Assembly: GCF_003206715.1 (NCBI RefSeq)
Contig: NZ_PZJU01000024.1
Location: forward strand, 1 to 64,000
Source: Salinicola peritrichatus
GTDB lineage: Bacteria; Pseudomonadota; Gammaproteobacteria; Pseudomonadales; Halomonadaceae
Direction of reading: 5' to 3'
Length of the DNA stretch: 64,000 bases
Shown here: positions 37,776 to 44,938 of the stretch, one piece after another
Numbering within the stretch: the first letter of the stretch is position 1
Layout of the letters: each line of letters opens with the position of its first letter
Notes under the pieces: model-generated
Database searches by the model: none
What the model saw: the letters and a program-made list of their open reading frames with translations, nothing else
What the model was told of the DNA's origin: nothing
Translations under genes and position numbers: made by a program

Positions 37776-38503
37776 TCATCGACTTGCGCACAGGCGCCGC
37801 GCGATCAGCGCTGCCGCCTGATCGATCAGCGTTGCCTGCGTCTGCGGCTGGCGTTTCGGCGGCTGCCAGTCATGATCTCCGCCCTCCAGAAAGTGGCATT
37901 CGACGTGTGCCGGCAGTGTGTAGTTTTCGACCTCCTCGCGGCGGCCGAACGGGTCCCGCGTGCCCTGCAGGAGCATCAGCGGACAGTCGATCGCCGGCCA
38001 GTGGTCGAGCCGCAGCCGTTCCGGCTTGCCCGGCGGATGGAAGGGGTAGCCGCACAACACCAACCCGGCCGCCCCCGACCGGGAGGCCATCAGGCTCGCC
38101 ACGCGTCCGCCCATCGACTTGCCGCCCAGCTACAGCGGCGTGACGGCATCCAGTGCCGTCAGAGCCCGTTGCCATGCGGCGAGTTCGGTCACCAGCGTAT
38201 CGACTTCGGCGGCGGGCGACGCCGGCCTTCCCGGCGGATTCTCGCCATGTAGCCGAACTCCACCGCGACGACCTGAATCCCCGCGGCCAGCCGTTGCCGC
38301 AGCCGAGTCAGAAACACGGAGTCATGTCCGGCGCCGGCGCCGTGACACAGCAGCAATCGGCCATGCTCGTCCCGGCCGCGCACCTGGAAACCGCCCAGCG
38401 TCGTTTCATGCAACCGATCGTCGGCTTGGTCCAGCGCCTGCCGCAAGCGCTCGATATCCGCCGTGTCCAGCCCGGTCGCCTGGCACTCCGTCGACATTCC
38501 CAT
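37776..38503 (-). pseudogene. Broken KANL3/Tex30-type alpha/beta hydrolase gene
   Basis: Two pieces together rebuild one hydrolase of about 240 residues. The first (38503 to about 38205) gives HGAGAGHDSVFL and VEFGYMARIRREGR. A one-base frameshift near 38205-38230 then moves the reading into the frame that continues AEVDTLVTELAAW. That frame is stopped by TAG at 38130-38132, where the family has the tyrosine of LYLGGKSMGGR. After the stop, the nucleophile-elbow text GGKSMGGR and the rest to GGDHDWQPPKRQ are intact. Two independent lesions argue for a true pseudogene rather than one sequencing error. A downstream fragment from the ATG at 38114 could still be translated but lacks half the fold. 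Confidence 0.85.
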
Positions 38504-38593: not shown

Positions 38594-39766
38594 ATGGCTT
38601 TAGACATCCTCGTGATCGGCGCTGGCATGGGCGGCTTGACCGCTGCCTTGGCGCTGCAACAGTCCGGCCACCGGGTACGCGTGGTCGACCGCGTCGCCGA
38701 GTTGCGCCCGGTGGGCGCGGCGATCTCGGTGTGGTCCAACGGCGTCAAGGTGCTCAAGGCGCTCGGCATCGGCGATGCGGTCGAAGACGTCAGCGGCCGC
38801 ATGAACCATATGCGCTATATGAGCCGTGACGGCGAGCTGCTCACCGACTTCAGCCTTCAGCCCCTCTACGACCAGGTCGGCCAGCGCGCCTGCCCCATCG
38901 CCCGTGCCGCACTACAGCAACTGCTGCTCGAGGCGGTGGGCGAGGACAACGTCACCCTCGGCCTCGCCTGCAGCGACTATCACGCCGGCGACAGCGGCGT
39001 GACCGCCCGCTTCGCCGATGGCAGCCAGCGCCGGGCGGATCTGATCGTGATCGCCGACGGCACCCATTCGAAGCTGCGCGAGCGCGCGTTAGGCCGTCAG
39101 GTCGACCGTCGCTATTGCGGTTACGTCAACTGGAACGTGCGCGTGCCGGCCAGCGCCGATCTCGCTCCGCTCGATCACTGGGTGCAGTATGTCGGCGATC
39201 ATCAGCGCGTCTCGATGATGCCGATGAGCGGCGATGCCGAGGCGCCGGAATTCTACTGTTTCTTCGACGTTCCCCTGCCCGCCGGCACGCCCAACGACCC
39301 CGCTGGCTATCGCGACGAACTCGCACGGCATTTCGCCGGCTGGGCGGCACCGGTGCAGCGGTTGATCGAACGCTTCGACCCCGCCGCCATGGCCCGGGTG
39401 GAGATCCACGACATCGAACCGCTCGAAACGCTGATCGGTCCACGCGCCGCCATTCTCGGCGACGCCGCCCACGGCATGGCGCCGGATCTCGGTCAGGGCG
39501 GCTGTCAGGCGATGGAGGATGCCTGGGTGCTGGCACGAACCCTCGACAATGCCGCCGGAGACATTCCCAGGGCACTGACGGCCTATGACGCTGCCCGTAG
39601 CGAACGAGTCGGCGAGATCGTCGCCCGCGCACGCAAACGCGCCGAGACCACCCACGGCGCCGATCCCGCCGCGACCCAGGCATGGTATGCCGAACTCGCC
39701 GACGAGGATGGCAGCCATATCATGGCGGGGATGAGCAAGACGATTCTGGGCGGCCCGCTGGGTTAG
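38594..39766 (+). CDS. hpxO: FAD-dependent urate hydroxylase HpxO
   Basis: HpxO oxidises urate to 5-hydroxyisourate with NADH and O2, replacing uricase. The 390-residue protein has the FAD motif VIGAGMGGLTAALAL at the N-terminus and the second FAD motif ILGDAAHGMAPDLGQGG. It matches Klebsiella HpxO along its length as I recall it (PVGAAISVW-NGVK, YVNWN, CFFDVPLPAG, HFAGWA-PVQ, closing with GPLG). No other purine-degradation gene is adjacent; neighbours are a broken hydrolase and ttcA. A longer open frame upstream is not coding. A bidirectional terminator follows. Confidence 0.85.
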   Translation: MALDILVIGAGMGGLTAALALQQSGHRVRVVDRVAELRPVGAAISVWSNGVKVLKALGIGDAVEDVSGRMNHMRYMSRDGELLTDFSLQPLYDQVGQRACPIARAALQQLLLEAVGEDNVTLGLACSDYHAGDSGVTARFADGSQRRADLIVIADGTHSKLRERALGRQVDRRYCGYVNWNVRVPASADLAPLDHWVQYVGDHQRVSMMPMSGDAEAPEFYCFFDVPLPAGTPNDPAGYRDELARHFAGWAAPVQRLIERFDPAAMARVEIHDIEPLETLIGPRAAILGDAAHGMAPDLGQGGCQAMEDAWVLARTLDNAAGDIPRALTAYDAARSERVGEIVARARKRAETTHGADPAATQAWYAELADEDGSHIMAGMSKTILGGPLG

Positions 39767-39841: not shown

Positions 39842-40768
39842 TCAGGCTTCGCGGGCGAGCAGATCGAAGGCCTCGATCCGCGTCTCCTGCATCTGCTGCT
39901 GCTTCGCTTCCAATCCCTCGAAATCGAACAGGTTGCGATCGGCGAGCTGTGACGGCGCCACGTTGGTGACCGCCTTGAACATGGTTTCCAGCCGTCCCGG
40001 ATGCTTGACCTCCCATTCCGCCAGCATCTCCTTGACCACCTGGCGCTGCAGGTTGGGCTGCGAGCCGCACAGATTGCAGGGAATGATCGGGAAGGCCATC
40101 TGGCGCGCGTACTCGGCGATATCCGCTTCGCGGCAGTAGGCCAGTGGACGGATGACGATGTTCTTGCCGTCGTCGGAAAGCAGCTTGGGCGGCATCGCCT
40201 TGAGCGTGCCGCCGAAGAACATGTTGAGGAACAGCGTCTCGAGAATGTCCTCGCGATGGTGGCCAAGCGCCACCTTGGTCGCCCCGATCTCCTCGGCGAA
40301 GCCGTATAGCGAACCGCGCCGCAGCCGCGAGCAGAGCGCGCAGGTGGTCTTGCCTTCCGGTGTCTTTTCCTTGACCACCGAATAGGTATTGCGCTCGAGG
40401 ATATGAAACGGCACGCCCCTGGCGCTCAGGTACTCGGGCAGCACATGCTCGGGAAAGCCCGGCTGCTTCTGGTCGAGGTTGACCGCCACCAGTTCGAAAT
40501 CGACCGGCGCGTTGCGCTGCAGATTGAGCAGGATCTCCAGCATGGTATAGGAGTCCTTGCCGCCGGACAGACACACCATCACCTTGTCGCCGTCGTGGAT
40601 CATGCCGTAGTCGATGATCGCATTGCCGACCTGGCGCCGCAGACGTTTCTGCAGCTTGTTGAACTCGCGTTTTTCCCTGGCCGCGCTGGCGGACGATAGC
40701 GCCTCGCCGTCGGCGTCGGTGGCAGTCGCGGCCTGCCGGCTCTCGATGGGATCGCTGGCTCGTTGCAT
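39842..40768 (-). CDS. ttcA: tRNA 2-thiocytidine(32) synthetase TtcA
   Basis: TtcA thiolates C32 of certain tRNAs using ATP and a 4Fe-4S cluster. The 308-residue protein has the PP-loop SGGKDS at 68-73, the first cysteine pair CALC at C143/C146, and the second pair CNLC near residue 235, all required in the family. An N-terminal extension of about 30 Ala/Ser-rich residues precedes the conserved start region; a shorter start is possible. Confidence 0.94.
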
Positions 40769-41004
40769 GGTTCGCTCTTTCGCGCCCGGCGGGCCGACGC
40801 CTCGTGGATCGGCATCGCCTCGCGCCCTCTTGCGCGGGTCTCATTCGTGGGGCGCCTATGCTAACACCGCCTGGGACCGGGGCGAAGTGCCCACCGCGGC
40901 GACCGCAGCGAGAAGTGATCGAGTTAGCCGAATTGATTATCGCCATAATTATCGACAATACCCAGAATGGCTCTCCCCCTTAAGATCGCGAGAGCGACGA
41001 CGCC
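40769..41004. promoter_or_regulatory. Divergent ttcA/amidohydrolase control region
   Basis: An AT-rich patch at 40931-40960 stands out from the GC-rich surroundings and contains two direct copies of ATTATCG (about 40936 and 40949) 13 bases apart. This could be an operator for the amidohydrolase cluster; no linked regulator gene is seen. No convincing -35/-10 pair was assigned. Confidence 0.3.
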
Positions 41005-41901
41005 ATGCTCGAGCCACGCCAGTATCGCCATGGGTTGCCCTGCCCCGGTCCCGATCCGTGGATCGAACCAGCCAGTTTCAGCGTGCCCGAGGGTGCCTGC
41101 GACTGCCACGCCCATGTCATCGACGACGGCAGCCGCTTTCCCCTCTCCGCCGAGCGCAGCTACACCCCGCCCCCGGCCTCGGAGCGCGACTACCTGGCGA
41201 TGTTGGATGCCACCGGCATGACCTACGGCGTCCTGGTCCAGGTCAGCGTCCACGGTCTCGACAATCGCTTCATGCTGGAAGTACTCGCACGCCATCCCGA
41301 GCGCCTGAGAGGCGTCGCCGTGATCGACGACAGCTTTTCACCGTCCACCTTGGCCGCCATGCACGAGCTCGGCGTTCGCGGTACCCGGGTCAACGTGCTG
41401 TTCGGCGGCGGCGTCGCACTGGACCAGTTGGAGACGCTGGCGACGCTGATCGCGCCCTACGGCTGGCACCTGCAGCTGCTAGTGGGTGCCGAGCAGTTAC
41501 CATCGCTGCTGCCGCGCCTGGTGCGTTTGCAGACACCACTGGTGATCGACCACATGGGCCATCCTGCCGCCGCGGCCGGGGTGGAGAGCGAGGGCTTCCG
41601 TGCCCTCTGTCGATTGATCGGCGACCATGGCCACTGGGTCAAGCTTTCGGCGCCCTACCGCCTGGAGCCCGAACACGACGACTACGCCGCCTCGCGGACC
41701 ATGGCACGGCGGCTGGCGGCTATCGCGCCGGAGCGGGTGCTCTACGGCAGCGACTGGCCGCATGTCGCCATTCCCTATCAACGGCCGAACACCGGCCACA
41801 TGCGCAACCTCGTCGGCGAATGGTTCGACGACGCCCAGATCCAACGCCTGCTGGTGAGCAACCCGGCCACGCTCTACGGCTTCGGCAGCGACGCCGGCTA
41901 G
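41005..41901 (+). CDS. Amidohydrolase-2 family hydrolase (pyrone-dicarboxylate lactonase-like)
   Basis: The 298-residue TIM-barrel hydrolase has the metal motif DCHAH (33-37), the barrel motif LVIDHMGHP and the terminal LYGSDWPH motif of the amidohydrolase-2 family. The best-known relatives open the lactone ring of 2-pyrone-4,6-dicarboxylate (LigI); others act on sugar or aromatic lactones, so the substrate is uncertain. It is first of three same-strand genes, followed after 26 bases by an MBL-fold hydrolase and then a transporter, which suggests uptake and hydrolysis of one organic acid or lactone. Confidence 0.85.
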   Translation: MLEPRQYRHGLPCPGPDPWIEPASFSVPEGACDCHAHVIDDGSRFPLSAERSYTPPPASERDYLAMLDATGMTYGVLVQVSVHGLDNRFMLEVLARHPERLRGVAVIDDSFSPSTLAAMHELGVRGTRVNVLFGGGVALDQLETLATLIAPYGWHLQLLVGAEQLPSLLPRLVRLQTPLVIDHMGHPAAAAGVESEGFRALCRLIGDHGHWVKLSAPYRLEPEHDDYAASRTMARRLAAIAPERVLYGSDWPHVAIPYQRPNTGHMRNLVGEWFDDAQIQRLLVSNPATLYGFGSDAG

Positions 41902-41927
41902 CCCATTCCCCACGACATGGAGCGATC

Positions 41928-42692
41928 ATGACTTCCCGATACCGGCTTCACCCGCTGTTCTCCGGCATTCCCGTGGCCGGCAGTCAACGCGGGCCATTGG
42001 GCTGGAGCAGCGCCTTTCTGATCGAGGTGACGACGGCAACACGCCAGCGCCACGTGCTGTTCGACACCGCCGGCTACAACGAGCGCCAGGAGTTGCTGAA
42101 GCGCCTGTCGGCCCTGCGGCTCTCGCCTGCGGACATCGATGCGGTGGTGATCAGCCACCTCCATTTCGATCATGCCGTCAACTGGCCGCTGTTTCCCGAT
42201 GCCGAGATCTACCTGCCGCGCAAGGAGCTCGAACCGCCCGAGCCGTTCGACGACTTCGCCGTGCCCGAACTGCACCGCGGAGCCCTGGCCAGGCATCCGC
42301 GGCTGCACCTGATCGAGGACGACGACCGCATCGAAGGCATGCAGGTCATCGAGGCCCCCGGCCATACCCAGGGATTGATCGCGCTGGCGTTCGACGACGT
42401 CATTCTCGCCAGCGATGCGATCAAGAACCGCCACGAGCTGCACCCCGACGCCGAGCTGAGCAATACCTGGAACCGCCAGGTCGCCCGCGATTCCATACGC
42501 CGGCTCTGCGCCCGGGCGGCCACGCTCCATCCCGGACACGATGCGCCGCTGCACCGGATCGAGGGTCGCTGGCAGGTGCTGGATGAACTCACTGCGACCA
42601 TTCGTCTTTCCGAATCCCTCACCGACACCGCCGGCGAACGCCAGTGGCGGATGACAATACCGCCGGGCCCCTGCGGCGCTATCGACCCATAA
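41928..42692 (+). CDS. Metallo-beta-lactamase-fold hydrolase
   Basis: The 254-residue protein has the MBL zinc motif HLHFDH (77-82), a later metal histidine in EAPGHTQG, the bridging aspartate in LASDA and the closing histidine in LHPGHD. Similar stand-alone members hydrolyse lactones or thioesters. No signal peptide is seen, so it is cytoplasmic. The start at 41928 has TGGAG upstream. It is the middle gene of the amidohydrolase-MBL-transporter cluster and may act on the same substrate. Confidence 0.85.
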   Translation: MTSRYRLHPLFSGIPVAGSQRGPLGWSSAFLIEVTTATRQRHVLFDTAGYNERQELLKRLSALRLSPADIDAVVISHLHFDHAVNWPLFPDAEIYLPRKELEPPEPFDDFAVPELHRGALARHPRLHLIEDDDRIEGMQVIEAPGHTQGLIALAFDDVILASDAIKNRHELHPDAELSNTWNRQVARDSIRRLCARAATLHPGHDAPLHRIEGRWQVLDELTATIRLSESLTDTAGERQWRMTIPPGPCGAIDP

Positions 42693-42704
42693 GGAGAAAC
42701 CGTC

Positions 42705-43955
42705 ATGGCACAGGAATCGAAGTCATGGACGATCGGCGGCATGCTGCGCCAGCTCGGCCCGGGAATGCTGGTCACCGGTGCCTTCATCGGCACCGGCACC
42801 ATCACCACCAGCATCGTCGCGGGAACCAACAACGGCTACACCCTGCTGTGGGCCTCGGTCACCCTGGCGATCATCATGGTCATGGTGTTGCAGGAGATGG
42901 TGGCGCGCCTGTCCCTGGCGACGGGCCTGTCGCTGGGCCAACTGATACGCGACAAGATCGGTCTATGGGCCAGCATCATTGCCGTGCTGGCGATCACGGG
43001 AGGCAACACCATCTACTCGGTGGGCAACCTGGCGGGGGTCAATCTCTCCCTGGACGGCCTGATACCGGGCGTTTCCGGCACCCTGTGGATGGCGATCGTG
43101 ACCCTGCTCTACTGGATCCTGCTGATGCTGGGGCGCTATGCGTTGCTGGAGAAGACCATCATGCTGCTGGTCGGCGTGATGAGCCTGACCTTTCTGTTCA
43201 ACATGTTCTACGTCACGCCGGACTATCCGGCGGTGTTCAAGGGCCTGATCACGCCGCGCTTTGCGCTTTCCGACACCATGCTGGTGCTGGGGCTGATCGG
43301 CACCACGGTAGTGCCCTACAACCTGTATCTGCACTCATCGGGGGTCATCGAGCGGCAGTGGCACCGCAATCCCCAACACTATTTCCGGCTGATGCGTTTC
43401 GACACCTTCGTACCGATCTTCCTCGGCGGCATCGTGACCATGTCGGTGGGCGTGGTCGCTGCCGCCGTACTGCATCCGCTGCATGAGTCCCAGGGTCTGG
43501 AAATCACCAGCGCGCGGGAGATGGCGATGTCGCTGGAACCGTTCCTGGGGCCCGCCGCCTATACCTTCTTCCGCATCGGCCTGTTCGCGGCAGCGGTTTC
43601 CTGCATGCCGATGGCGGCGCTTTCCGCGGCCTACGTCTTCACCCAGAGCTTCAAGCTCTCCACCGATCTCAAGAGCACGCCTTTCCGCCTGGTCTTTTCG
43701 TTCGTGGCCTGGGTGCCGCTGCTGCTCGCACTCAGTATCGAACGCCCGGTCTGGACCATCATCCTGGCCCAGACGGTCAACGGCATGCTGCTGCCGATAT
43801 CGGCGGTGCTGATTCTCTATCTGATCAACAAGAAAGGCATGGTCGGCGAGCAGTACCGCAACGGATGGATTACCAACACGCTGGGCGGCATCGCCGTGCT
43901 ATTCGCCATCTATATGGGCATCACCAACATTCTGTCGTCGCTTGGCCTGGTCTAA
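42705..43955 (+). CDS. Nramp-fold transporter lacking the metal-binding residues
   Basis: The 416-residue protein has about 11 membrane helices and aligns with Nramp/MntH, for example GPGMLVTGAFIGTGTITT against the family TM1 and VVPYNLYLHSS against TM6. The metal ligands are missing: TM1 DPGN is GTGT (29-32) and TM6 MPH is VPY (203-205). Known Nramp metal transporters need these residues, so metal transport is unlikely. Context with two hydrolases suggests an organic acid substrate; Nramp-like YcsG in the Bacillus oxoprolinase cluster is a possible parallel. AAGGAG precedes the ATG. Confidence 0.85.
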   Translation: MAQESKSWTIGGMLRQLGPGMLVTGAFIGTGTITTSIVAGTNNGYTLLWASVTLAIIMVMVLQEMVARLSLATGLSLGQLIRDKIGLWASIIAVLAITGGNTIYSVGNLAGVNLSLDGLIPGVSGTLWMAIVTLLYWILLMLGRYALLEKTIMLLVGVMSLTFLFNMFYVTPDYPAVFKGLITPRFALSDTMLVLGLIGTTVVPYNLYLHSSGVIERQWHRNPQHYFRLMRFDTFVPIFLGGIVTMSVGVVAAAVLHPLHESQGLEITSAREMAMSLEPFLGPAAYTFFRIGLFAAAVSCMPMAALSAAYVFTQSFKLSTDLKSTPFRLVFSFVAWVPLLLALSIERPVWTIILAQTVNGMLLPISAVLILYLINKKGMVGEQYRNGWITNTLGGIAVLFAIYMGITNILSSLGLV

Positions 43956-44013
43956 GGCCTGTTGCCGTTTCAGCGCGAGCCGCGTTGCCGCGTGAAACGA
44001 CAACGGATCCCAG
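43956..44013. repeat. Dispersed palindrome, copy C (degenerate)
   Basis: Directly after the transporter stop codon, GGCCTGTTGCCGTTTCA and TGAAACGACAACGGATCC form an imperfect inverted repeat around a CGCG-rich centre. The core GTTGnCGTTTCAGCGCG is shared with the copy at 57575. It may double as a 3'-end structure for the transporter mRNA. Confidence 0.6.
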
Positions 44014-44027
44014 GACACCGTACCGCG

Positions 44028-44252
44028 CTACGCCAGGTGCACGATGTTGGCGTAGCGCAACAGGATGCCCACGAACAGAATCACGATGCCGGCCCGCTGC
44101 AGCTTGAACTCTCCCGGCGACAGGGCCATGCGCCGCAGCCAGAACAGCATGAGACCGCGCAGGTCACGGGTGCGCCAGATGTAATGCAGATAGCTCGCGC
44201 AAACCACCATCAGGCCACCGAGCAGCGCTGTCTTCTCCATCCACTCCATCAT
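44028..44252 (-). CDS. Small two-helix membrane protein, unknown function
   Basis: The 74-residue protein has two hydrophobic segments (about 8-24 and 54-70) separated by a basic loop (WRTRDLRGLMLFWLRRM). GGGAGGAAGG precedes two consecutive ATG codons; either could be the start. It follows the exonuclease gene by 41 bases on the same strand, at the end of the acetate-type module. No family is recognised. Confidence 0.6.
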   Translation of the reverse strand: MMEWMEKTALLGGLMVVCASYLHYIWRTRDLRGLMLFWLRRMALSPGEFKLQRAGIVILFVGILLRYANIVHLA

Positions 44253-44293
44253 CCTTCCTCCCAGAGAATCGAACCCACTCGCGTCACGTGTCG

Positions 44294-44938
44294 TCAGACT
44301 TCCCGTTCGAGGCGCAGATGAATCAACGCCGCGGTCACGGCATCGCCGATGGCGGTGTGTCGGCCCAGCATCGGCAGATCCAACGCCGCCGCCACCGCTT
44401 CGAAGCGCAGGTCCGGTTCGACCGACGGTCGAGCCCGGCGATACCATCGGGCATAGCGACGGCGCACGTCGACCCGCCGATTGGGCAGCGCGAAGCCGAA
44501 GCGTGGCCGCAGTTGGCGGTCGATGACGGCCAGGTCGTAGTCGATGCACCAGCCGAGCAGCGGCCGATTGCCGATGAAGCCGAGCAGGCGCGCCAGGGCA
44601 TCGCCCACCGTTTCACCGCCGAGCAGGTCGACGCCGCGCAAGCCGTGAATGCATATCGAATCGGCCGACAAACTCTCCGGACGCTGCAGGCGCAGATCCA
44701 GTGCCTGGCTGGTCTGGATCCGGTCGCCGACCACCTTCACCGCCGCCAGCGACACCAACTCGGCCCGGCGCCGGTCGAGTCCCGTGGTCTCGCAATCCAG
44801 CGCCACCCACTCGTCTCCCTCGTAGGGCTCGAACAGGTGCCGATAGCGAAGATCGCAGACCTGTCGTCCACGCCGACGACGCCAGCGCTCCATCAGCGTC
44901 ACGGCTTTACCCGATGCATTGGCGTCGGCGGCATTCAT
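44294..44938 (-). CDS. DEDDh 3'-5' exonuclease (DnaQ/epsilon-like)
   Basis: The 214-residue protein carries the exonuclease motifs ALDCETTGLD (D48, E50), IDYDLAVID and the DEDDh ending HTAIGDAV. It is not the polymerase III epsilon subunit, which is longer and differently organised. In Pseudomonas a similar exonuclease gene follows a DUF294 gene next to an acetate symporter. Here it starts three bases after the DUF294 stop, so the two are almost certainly cotranslated. A nucleotide-signal or RNA substrate is possible but unproven. Confidence 0.87.
   Translation of the reverse strand: MNAADANASGKAVTLMERWRRRRGRQVCDLRYRHLFEPYEGDEWVALDCETTGLDRRRAELVSLAAVKVVGDRIQTSQALDLRLQRPESLSADSICIHGLRGVDLLGGETVGDALARLLGFIGNRPLLGWCIDYDLAVIDRQLRPRFGFALPNRRVDVRRRYARWYRRARPSVEPDLRFEAVAAALDLPMLGRHTAIGDAVTAALIHLRLEREV

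Follow-up and report, generated by a model that had tools for sequence, protein, structure and literature searches.

What does a protein of the Nramp family carry once the ligands used by metal-transporting Nramps are gone, and what is its gene doing beside those of two small-molecule hydrolases? The question is raised by a three-gene locus of Salinicola peritrichatus, found in the 64,000-nucleotide stretch of DNA that we analyzed (hereafter the window; contig NZ_PZJU01000024.1, C28:1-64000, of a 4.62-Mb genome). The genes are as follows.

41005-41901, + strand: Amidohydro_2 hydrolase (298 amino acids; PF04909, 171.9 bits)
41928-42692, + strand: metallo-beta-lactamase (MBL)-fold hydrolase, lactonase-type (254 amino acids from its ATG; PF00753, 62.3 bits for the open reading frame from 41898)
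42705-43955, + strand: Nramp-related carrier, GTGT/VPYN, LeuT fold (416 amino acids; PF01566, 265.3 bits)

An earlier reading of the locus, made from the sequence alone, had noted the clustering of the three genes on one strand and had proposed the uptake and hydrolysis of an organic acid or lactone. The cluster is confirmed as a tight operon, with gaps of 26 nt and then 12 nt and good ribosome-binding sites ahead of the MBL gene (GGAG) and the carrier gene (AAGGAG). We consider it probable that this operon serves to import a small cyclic organic acid and to open its ring. Computation establishes the operon, the missing metal ligands, the clade of the carrier, its conserved neighbors, and the fold; the organic solute, the direction of transport, and the lactone chemistry, like the substrate itself, are what we infer. 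The evidence favors a carrier of organic acids, joined by two hydrolases that open rings, over a metal transporter: the metal ligands are gone in all four members of the carrier's clade, the MBL gene lies directly upstream of the carrier in three of the four, and 64 of 80 wider loci are linked to 5-oxoprolinase (pxpABC) or hydantoinase (hyuAB) genes.

Alignment of the carrier to 12 canonical MntH loci (the host's own second Nramp, with DPGN/MPH, and 11 others) confirms that DPGN of transmembrane helix 1 (TM1) has become GTGT and that MPH of TM6 has become VPY. The canonical Asp and Asn of TM1 correspond to G29 and T32, and the canonical Ala, Met, and His of TM6 correspond to T200, V203, and Y205. 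Residues S105 and N108 (TM3) and F327 and R328 (TM9) replace D131, E134, R352, and R353 of DraNramp, which we take to be the numbering of its proton pathway; one Arg is kept. The carrier is a member of PF01566, far above the Pfam gathering score of 29.8, and scores 153.8 bits with the NCBIfam model for MntH (NF001923), under the cut-off of 430. It passes the loose model NF037982, "Nramp family divalent metal transporter" (107 bits; cut-off, 50), so automatic annotation will name it a metal transporter. An AlphaFold2 model built from 52 sequences (pLDDT, 93.5; pTM, 0.92) has TM1 broken at residues 28-29 and TM6 at 202-203 and superposes on DraNramp (6c3i; VIA Z score of 48.6, 2.3 Å over 382 residues) and on the Mg2+ transporter EleNRMT (7qji; VIA Z score of 48.5). 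Given this match, with the TM1 and TM6 ligands replaced, the fold is that of Nramp and the metal site is gone. The site described for the NRMT Mg2+ transporters, DxxG in TM1 and TxxA/T in TM6 (PMC8806188), is absent as well, the carrier having GTGT and T200-T-V-V203.

A scan of 84,980 species genomes met at least 586 relatives of the carrier, of which the best 80 were kept. The closest among these 80 are from Jeotgalicoccus halotolerans (L031; 63% identity) and Gulosibacter sediminis (L032; 57%). A profile built from these two and the window carrier (A2) found a fourth member in another of the 33 genomes searched from the Jeotgalicoccus family (G432, region L138; 709 bits). No further member at a comparable score was found in 369 genomes of the host's class (next best, 308 bits), 201 of the host's family, 299 of the Gulosibacter family, 394 of the Gulosibacter class, or 398 of the Jeotgalicoccus class, sets that overlap and are mostly samples of larger groups. 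The clade is rare, and its hosts are a pair of Bacillota, an actinomycete, and the window's host.

Monophyly of the GTGT/VPY proteins had been set beforehand as a test, and it was borne out, with support of 100/100 in a 67-row tree and 100/99 in a 31-row tree built without the long branches L018, L008, and L012. The first of these values indicates that the motif is inherited rather than a product of chance. All four members have GTGT/VPYN, and 87 wider relatives have GPGT (85) or GPGS (2). Nine positions are specific to the clade, present in 4/4 members and 0/87 wider relatives (G25, T30, S105, Y136, A297, M301, M303, A305, and P338). The loss of metal ligands that the sequence-only reading described is thus real but not peculiar to this clade: since the nearest large family reads GPGT, the clade-specific step is the change of Pro30 to Thr. 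A sister relation to the GPGT family had support of 97/93 in the 67-row tree and 66/79 in the 31-row tree. Rows left out of the trees were L061 (no open reading frame found), L011 (partial), L001 (the window copy), and near-identical rows, which were removed above 66% identity among pxp-linked rows only (67-row tree) or above 55% also among unlinked and hyu rows (31-row tree). The trees took in neither B. subtilis YcsG nor C. glutamicum PxpT.

The sporadic spread of the clade, which has one member among 201 genomes from the host's family, suggests transfer at some time. Base composition gives no sign of recent transfer, because GC content (0.62-0.68) and GC3 (0.82-0.87) of the three operon genes match those of seven other window genes (0.63-0.68 and 0.79-0.89, respectively). 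A phage or plasmid origin was rejected: seven phage records match the carrier, the five listed being 23-26% identical, and a plasmid search gave no member of the GTGT clade (best match, 39.6%). Among viral contigs, candidate P0003 yielded nothing that was confirmed.

Nonrandom neighbors had been set as a further check, and the MBL gene proved to lie directly upstream of the carrier in the window, L031, and L138. The MBL proteins of the latter two are 44% and 42% identical to that of the window, and all three share the full di-metal site, HLHFDH (H77, H79, D81, and H82), H146, D163, and H204. In both Bacillota, the operon reads MBL, carrier, DUF6282, GntR, GlcD, GlcF, LhgO, with gaps of -19 to 75 nt, and in L138 it is followed by the TRAP genes DctP, DctQ, and DctM (named by eye). 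LhgO (L-2-hydroxyglutarate oxidase) scores 555 and 562 bits, above the NCBIfam cut-off of 299, and GlcD scores 467 and 484 bits, under its own cut-off of 567.9. The partner in the amidohydrolase slot differs, being Amidohydro_2 in the window and DUF6282 in the two Bacillota. The Jeotgalicoccus genome also holds a separate GPGT paralogue (L139, 8533-9756) between arginase-family and aspartate-dehydrogenase-like genes, with relatives at an E value of 1e-60 or better in 27 of the 33 genomes of the Jeotgalicoccus family.

Judged from its sequence, the window amidohydrolase is a candidate lactonase of the LigI/4-sulfomuconolactone hydrolase type. It matches LigI, the 2-pyrone-4,6-dicarboxylate (PDC) hydrolase (4d8l), with an E value of 2.3e-41, and its score with the 4-sulfomuconolactone hydrolase model SlmHylase (NF042924) is 169.1 bits, under the cut-off of 500. 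In the alignment, the HxH motif, His180, Asp248, Arg124, and Arg217 of LigI are kept; Arg130 and Tyr156, presumably substrate residues (we assume the roles of all these LigI residues), are not. In two Sphingobium plasmids, relatives of the amidohydrolase adjoin an alpha-hydroxy-acid oxidase; in Methylobacterium, the neighbor is an Ldh-family oxidoreductase, and in Pseudoroseomonas, an MFS transporter. In the Sphingobium records, the gene that matches is annotated "GntR family transcriptional regulator," a label at odds with the tblastn match, which covers 95-100% of the query.

The best NCBIfam models for the MBL protein are those of N-acyl-homoserine lactone (AHL) lactonases and pyridoxo-lactonases, with 29-52 bits against cut-offs of 325-475 (for example, AiiA, 51.6 bits against 375), so that it lies below the cut-offs of the AHL lactonase families. 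A structural model built from two sequences only (pLDDT, 78.9) was closest to the uncharacterized protein 1ztc (Z, 19.1), and of the 31 structures that follow (ranks 2-32), 28 were lactonases or members of the methyl-parathion-hydrolase (MPH/OPH) branch, a ranking that discriminates weakly, as Z falls only to 14.5 by rank 50. A relative in Thermus thermophilus (38.5% identity) lies between TRAP permease genes and pxpA, and one in T. brockianus follows TRAP genes with no annotated pxpA. The T. thermophilus locus (L146, 7989-9440) is in itself a cluster of TRAP, MBL hydrolase, and pxpA genes with no annotated pxpB or pxpC beside it.

From its gene contexts, DUF6282 is a candidate lactonase-type hydrolase and a candidate new lactonase family. 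Its neighbors in Thermus oshimai are a PIG-L protein, 4-carboxy-4-hydroxy-2-oxoadipate aldolase, and catechol 2,3-dioxygenase, and on our assumption of the pathway, it takes the place where a PDC lactonase would be expected in a protocatechuate-type ring-cleavage cluster. It lies between an FAD/Fe-S dehydrogenase and an amidohydrolase in Natronorubrum, beside two amidohydrolases in Roseomonas, and with an alpha/beta hydrolase, an Fe-S protein, and a divergent sodium:glutamate symporter in Priestia; GntR and PIG-L neighbors recur in Alicyclobacillus, and the contexts in Mameliella and Microvirga are less telling. The DUF6282 genes (L031, 9234-10115; L138; L143; L144; L147; L148) recur beside hydroxy-acid dehydrogenases.

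Most of the wider loci are linked to genes of enzymes that open cyclic amides. The 78 kept loci outside the clade have GPGT/VPY and are 34-42% identical to the carrier. Linkage was counted by tblastn, because the caller of open reading frames yields antisense frames in GC-rich loci. The full set of pxpA, pxpB, and pxpC occurs on the same strand within 6 kb in 52 of the 80 loci, a partial set in 3, a set on the other strand in 1, and hyuA with hyuB in 8; the remaining loci include L031 and L032, the latter at a contig end. A pxp or hyu gene lies within 2.1 kb, center to center, in 61 of the 80. The 12 canonical MntH loci taken as a control had none (0/12), all being from the host's family with flanks no longer than about 1.5 kb, shorter than those of the 80 loci. 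Three haloarchaeal plasmids (L003, L006, and L007) have annotated hydantoinase/oxoprolinase genes directly downstream of the Nramp-related gene; a fourth (L004) is cut at the record's end, and in Pseudoalteromonas (L005) no such gene is annotated beside it.

Bacillus YcsG, with its oxoproline cluster, had been offered as a precedent. C. glutamicum needs PxpT, an Nramp family protein that shares 50% identity with YcsG, to grow on 5-oxoproline, and the protein is described as mediating uptake of this compound (PMC13274462), whereas overproduction of YcsG raised cellular Mn2+ in B. subtilis, where the gene was renamed mntG (PMC10448178); the function of YcsG/PxpT is therefore contested. As kinship, the precedent is weaker than had been thought: in structural alignments, YcsG (PDB 9a52, titled YCSG-FABL and taken as the B. 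subtilis protein) is 16-20% identical to the carrier, and DraNramp is 22-24% identical. Since the GPGT family is not close to YcsG, Nramp-related proteins may have become associated with 5-oxoprolinase more than once, in different lineages.

We propose that the carrier would be a LeuT-fold secondary carrier whose ligand would be a carboxylated organic compound, probably of the lactone type, rather than a metal ion, bound between the stretches where TM1 (GTGT) and TM6 (TTVVPYN) unwind. In the cytoplasm, the MBL hydrolase and the amidohydrolase would then open ester (lactone) bonds, and the resulting hydroxy acid would be oxidized to a keto acid, in the two Bacillota by GlcD/GlcF and LhgO of the same operon and in the window's host by unlinked enzymes. 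Conserved neighbors and monophyly favor in part the original proposal of uptake and hydrolysis; the amidohydrolase partner varies. Our own guess, a doubtful one, is 2-hydroxyglutarate gamma-lactone (5-oxotetrahydrofuran-2-carboxylate), on the grounds that it is the oxygen analogue of 5-oxoproline, which the neighbors of the sister clade handle, and that LhgO acts on 2-hydroxyglutarate.

Several observations weigh against an organic-acid operon. The link between MBL protein and carrier is seen in only two independent lineages. The Gulosibacter genome has no MBL homologue (the contig there ends 238 nt upstream of the carrier), and the gene after its carrier looks GAPDH-like by eye. Besides L031 and L032, 14 of the 80 loci have neither pxp nor hyu genes, among them L074, which is cut by a contig end, and L061, which gave no open reading frame. 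The window's host has no LhgO orthologue (the best match, at an E value of 2.5e-5, is pipecolate-oxidase-like), and nothing in the 64-kb window matches GlcD, LhgO, DUF6282, pxp, or hyu (tblastn for pxpA, pxpB, and pxpC). We know of no transport or enzyme assay for any of the four members. Finally, another Nramp-related protein, YcsG, is the one reported to raise cellular Mn2+ (PMC10448178), and both hydrolases of the operon are metalloenzymes, so a metal importer beside them would also make sense.

Such an importer would take up Mn2+ or Mg2+ through other ligands (such as backbone carbonyls, N108, or waters) and supply the two metallohydrolases. The close structural match to EleNRMT and the evidence for Mn2+ import by YcsG/MntG (PMC10448178) speak for it, as do the metal requirements of the MBL, amidohydrolase, and arginase-family neighbors. 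In addition, E116 of BfraNramp, aligned here to N108, binds Mn2+, and Asn occupies this position in some Nramp-related clades (PMC12873925). We nevertheless hold metal import to be unlikely: the TM1 and TM6 ligands are all gone with no acidic residue in their place, the NRMT signature is missing too, and cyclic-amide catabolic genes neighbor most of the wider loci and none of the MntH controls, which came from the host's family with short flanks.

The carrier might also be an ordinary 5-oxoproline (or hydantoin) carrier like those of the GPGT family, with the hydrolases as passengers. Its relatives at 34-42% identity are mostly pxp- or hyu-linked, and it is sister to the GPGT clade, a relation that drops from 97/93 to 66/79 without the long branches. 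The nine clade-only residues, found in none of the 87 others, make this quite improbable, as do the lack of a pxp or hyu match in the window, the separate GPGT paralogue of Jeotgalicoccus, and the retention of the MBL neighbor in two lineages. Very improbable is an aromatic ring-cleavage lactone or pyrone (e.g., PDC) or a sugar lactone as the substrate in place of a 2-hydroxyglutarate-type lactone, for which the kinship of the amidohydrolase to PDC and 4-sulfomuconolactone hydrolases and the T. oshimai cluster would argue, because Arg130 and Tyr156 of LigI (roles assumed as above) are replaced, no ring-cleavage dioxygenase is present among the 12 flanking window genes scanned, and LhgO and GlcDF of the Bacillota operons point to 2-hydroxy acids.

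The broader pattern among Nramp-related proteins without DPGN and MPH is likewise one of catabolic gene surroundings. In three genomes of the host's family, one type (FGPGA) has a DHDPS-family aldolase on one side and a DcaP-like porin on the other; a LacI-type regulator is also present, and an IlvD/Edd-type dehydratase is nearby in both genomes whose wider region was examined.

L013/L168 (6767-7951), L014/L166, and L015: FGPGA type, host's family

This type (FGPGN in Neorhizobium L170, which has LacI and DHDPS neighbors) looks like a sugar-acid or dicarboxylate carrier. A GAGD-type gene in one genome of the host's genus adjoins an amidase, in surroundings that include a relative of the window amidohydrolase (36%), a MatC-type carrier, and a glucarate-dehydratase-like gene. 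Two others, L012 (GPGS) and L008 (ETGN), have no telling neighbor. Six annotated plasmid loci were taken from 16 listed rows, a small and nonrandom sample; the rows passed over were near-copies, a single record without annotation, and haloarchaeal rows that presumably represented kinds met before. All six, including Neorhizobium L170, have a catabolic context, lack DPGN and MPH, and have Gly for the TM1 Asp. Among the others, a Haladaptatus locus has heparinase and Gfo/Idh neighbors, a Halomontanus locus has Gfo/Idh on both sides, and GAGD-type genes of Rhodococcus and Mycobacterium (L173 and L174) adjoin an FCD-type regulator, and genes for an FAD-linked oxidase and a CoA transferase run divergently. 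Croceibacterium L175 (5887-7251) lies between a four-carbon acid sugar kinase and a pectate lyase in a pectin-degradation cluster with DHDPS and pectinesterase.

By their gene neighborhoods, five of the seven types examined (classed by TM1/TM6) are suggested to have organic substrates. Against a generalization to organic acids, the GAGD/GTGD type (L018 and L173 to L175) keeps an acidic TM1 residue, with Asp at the fourth place (GxGD) in L173 to L175, and L170 keeps Asn (GPGN); from these residues, L173 to L175 and L170 may have a cation site. We rate at somewhat short of an even chance the general claim that most noncanonical Nramp-related proteins carry organic acids (cyclic amides, lactones, sugar acids, and hydroxy acids), with metal transport derived through the gain of DPGN and MPH and with the GTGT clade as a lactone-type branch. 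If this is true, many genes annotated "divalent metal transporter" are misnamed, the scan alone having met at least 586 relatives, and metal transport in SLC11 (NRAMP1 and DMT1) originated from an organic-acid carrier. The claim is directly testable, and the GTGT operon supplies enzymes for testing organic substrates of Nramp-related proteins.

The genes on either side of the operon run in the opposite direction.

Upstream of the operon, opposite strand: ttcA (487.8 bits against a cut-off of 272)
Downstream of the operon, opposite strand: an exonuclease-domain gene and a DUF294 gene

A scan of 40600-44400 gave no sigma-70-like promoters or terminators. Elsewhere in the window, and outside the operon, the FAD-dependent urate hydroxylase HpxO is encoded at 38594-39766 (+ strand; 581 bits against a cut-off of 500), and an Abhydrolase_11 gene at 37776-38503 (- strand) is split across two open reading frames in different frames (136.5 and 54.9 bits), a broken gene or an assembly error.

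Parts of this picture are already known. The loss of metal ligands in "Nramp-related" proteins is in print (PMC12873925, PMC8806188, and PMC9606685), as is the need for PxpT in 5-oxoproline use (PMC13274462). A 2026 preprint, in its available text, calls Nramp-related groups other than the NRMT-like and MntG groups "entirely uncharacterized" and treats only metals and protons as substrates (PMC12873925). Our literature search, weak in that it covered few subscription papers, found neither a lactonase-linked clade nor a general organic-acid link, no paper on a hydantoinase-Nramp transporter link, only PMC13274462 on a link to lactams or oxoprolinase, and only an off-topic review on a 2-hydroxyglutarate lactone or lactonase.

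Compared with canonical Nramp/MntH/SLC11 proteins, the window carrier shares the fold, the Pfam family, and the LHS that follows the TM6 break, but it lacks DPGN and MPH, has S105 and N108 for the Asp and Glu of TM3, and keeps one of the two TM9 Arg residues. With EleNRMT it shares the fold and the loss of the TM6 Met, whereas its site reads GxxT-TxxV rather than DxxG-TxxA/T. The amidohydrolase resembles LigI and 4-sulfomuconolactone hydrolase in its Amidohydro_2 family and catalytic residues and differs in a SlmHylase score far under the cut-off and in two presumed LigI substrate residues. The MBL protein likewise has the fold and di-metal motif of AHL lactonases and 4-pyridoxolactonase but scores far below their cut-offs. 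Like PxpT/YcsG, the carrier is a PF01566 protein encoded beside enzymes that open a cyclic carboxylate, a role that in our operon would fall to the MBL protein and amidohydrolase rather than to pxpABC, for which the window has no match. Most similar is the GPGT family, a probable sister clade that has lost the metal ligands alike; the window carrier falls outside it and is placed beside it, a relation that is weak in the 31-row tree. The two differ in TM1 (GPGT against GTGT), in TM3 (mostly YE(A/T)GN, mostly with E or Q, against YSVGN with S105), and in TM8 (AAG(L/I)TSAITAPL-type against AAAVSSMPMAAL-type, the window carrier having AAAVSCMPMAAL). The AGLTS of the GPGT-family TM8 presumably resembles the Na2 site of LeuT, a lead only, made without comparison to the LeuT sequence. 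Finally, the partners of the GPGT family are 5-oxoprolinase or hydantoinase, whereas those of the window clade are of the lactonase type.

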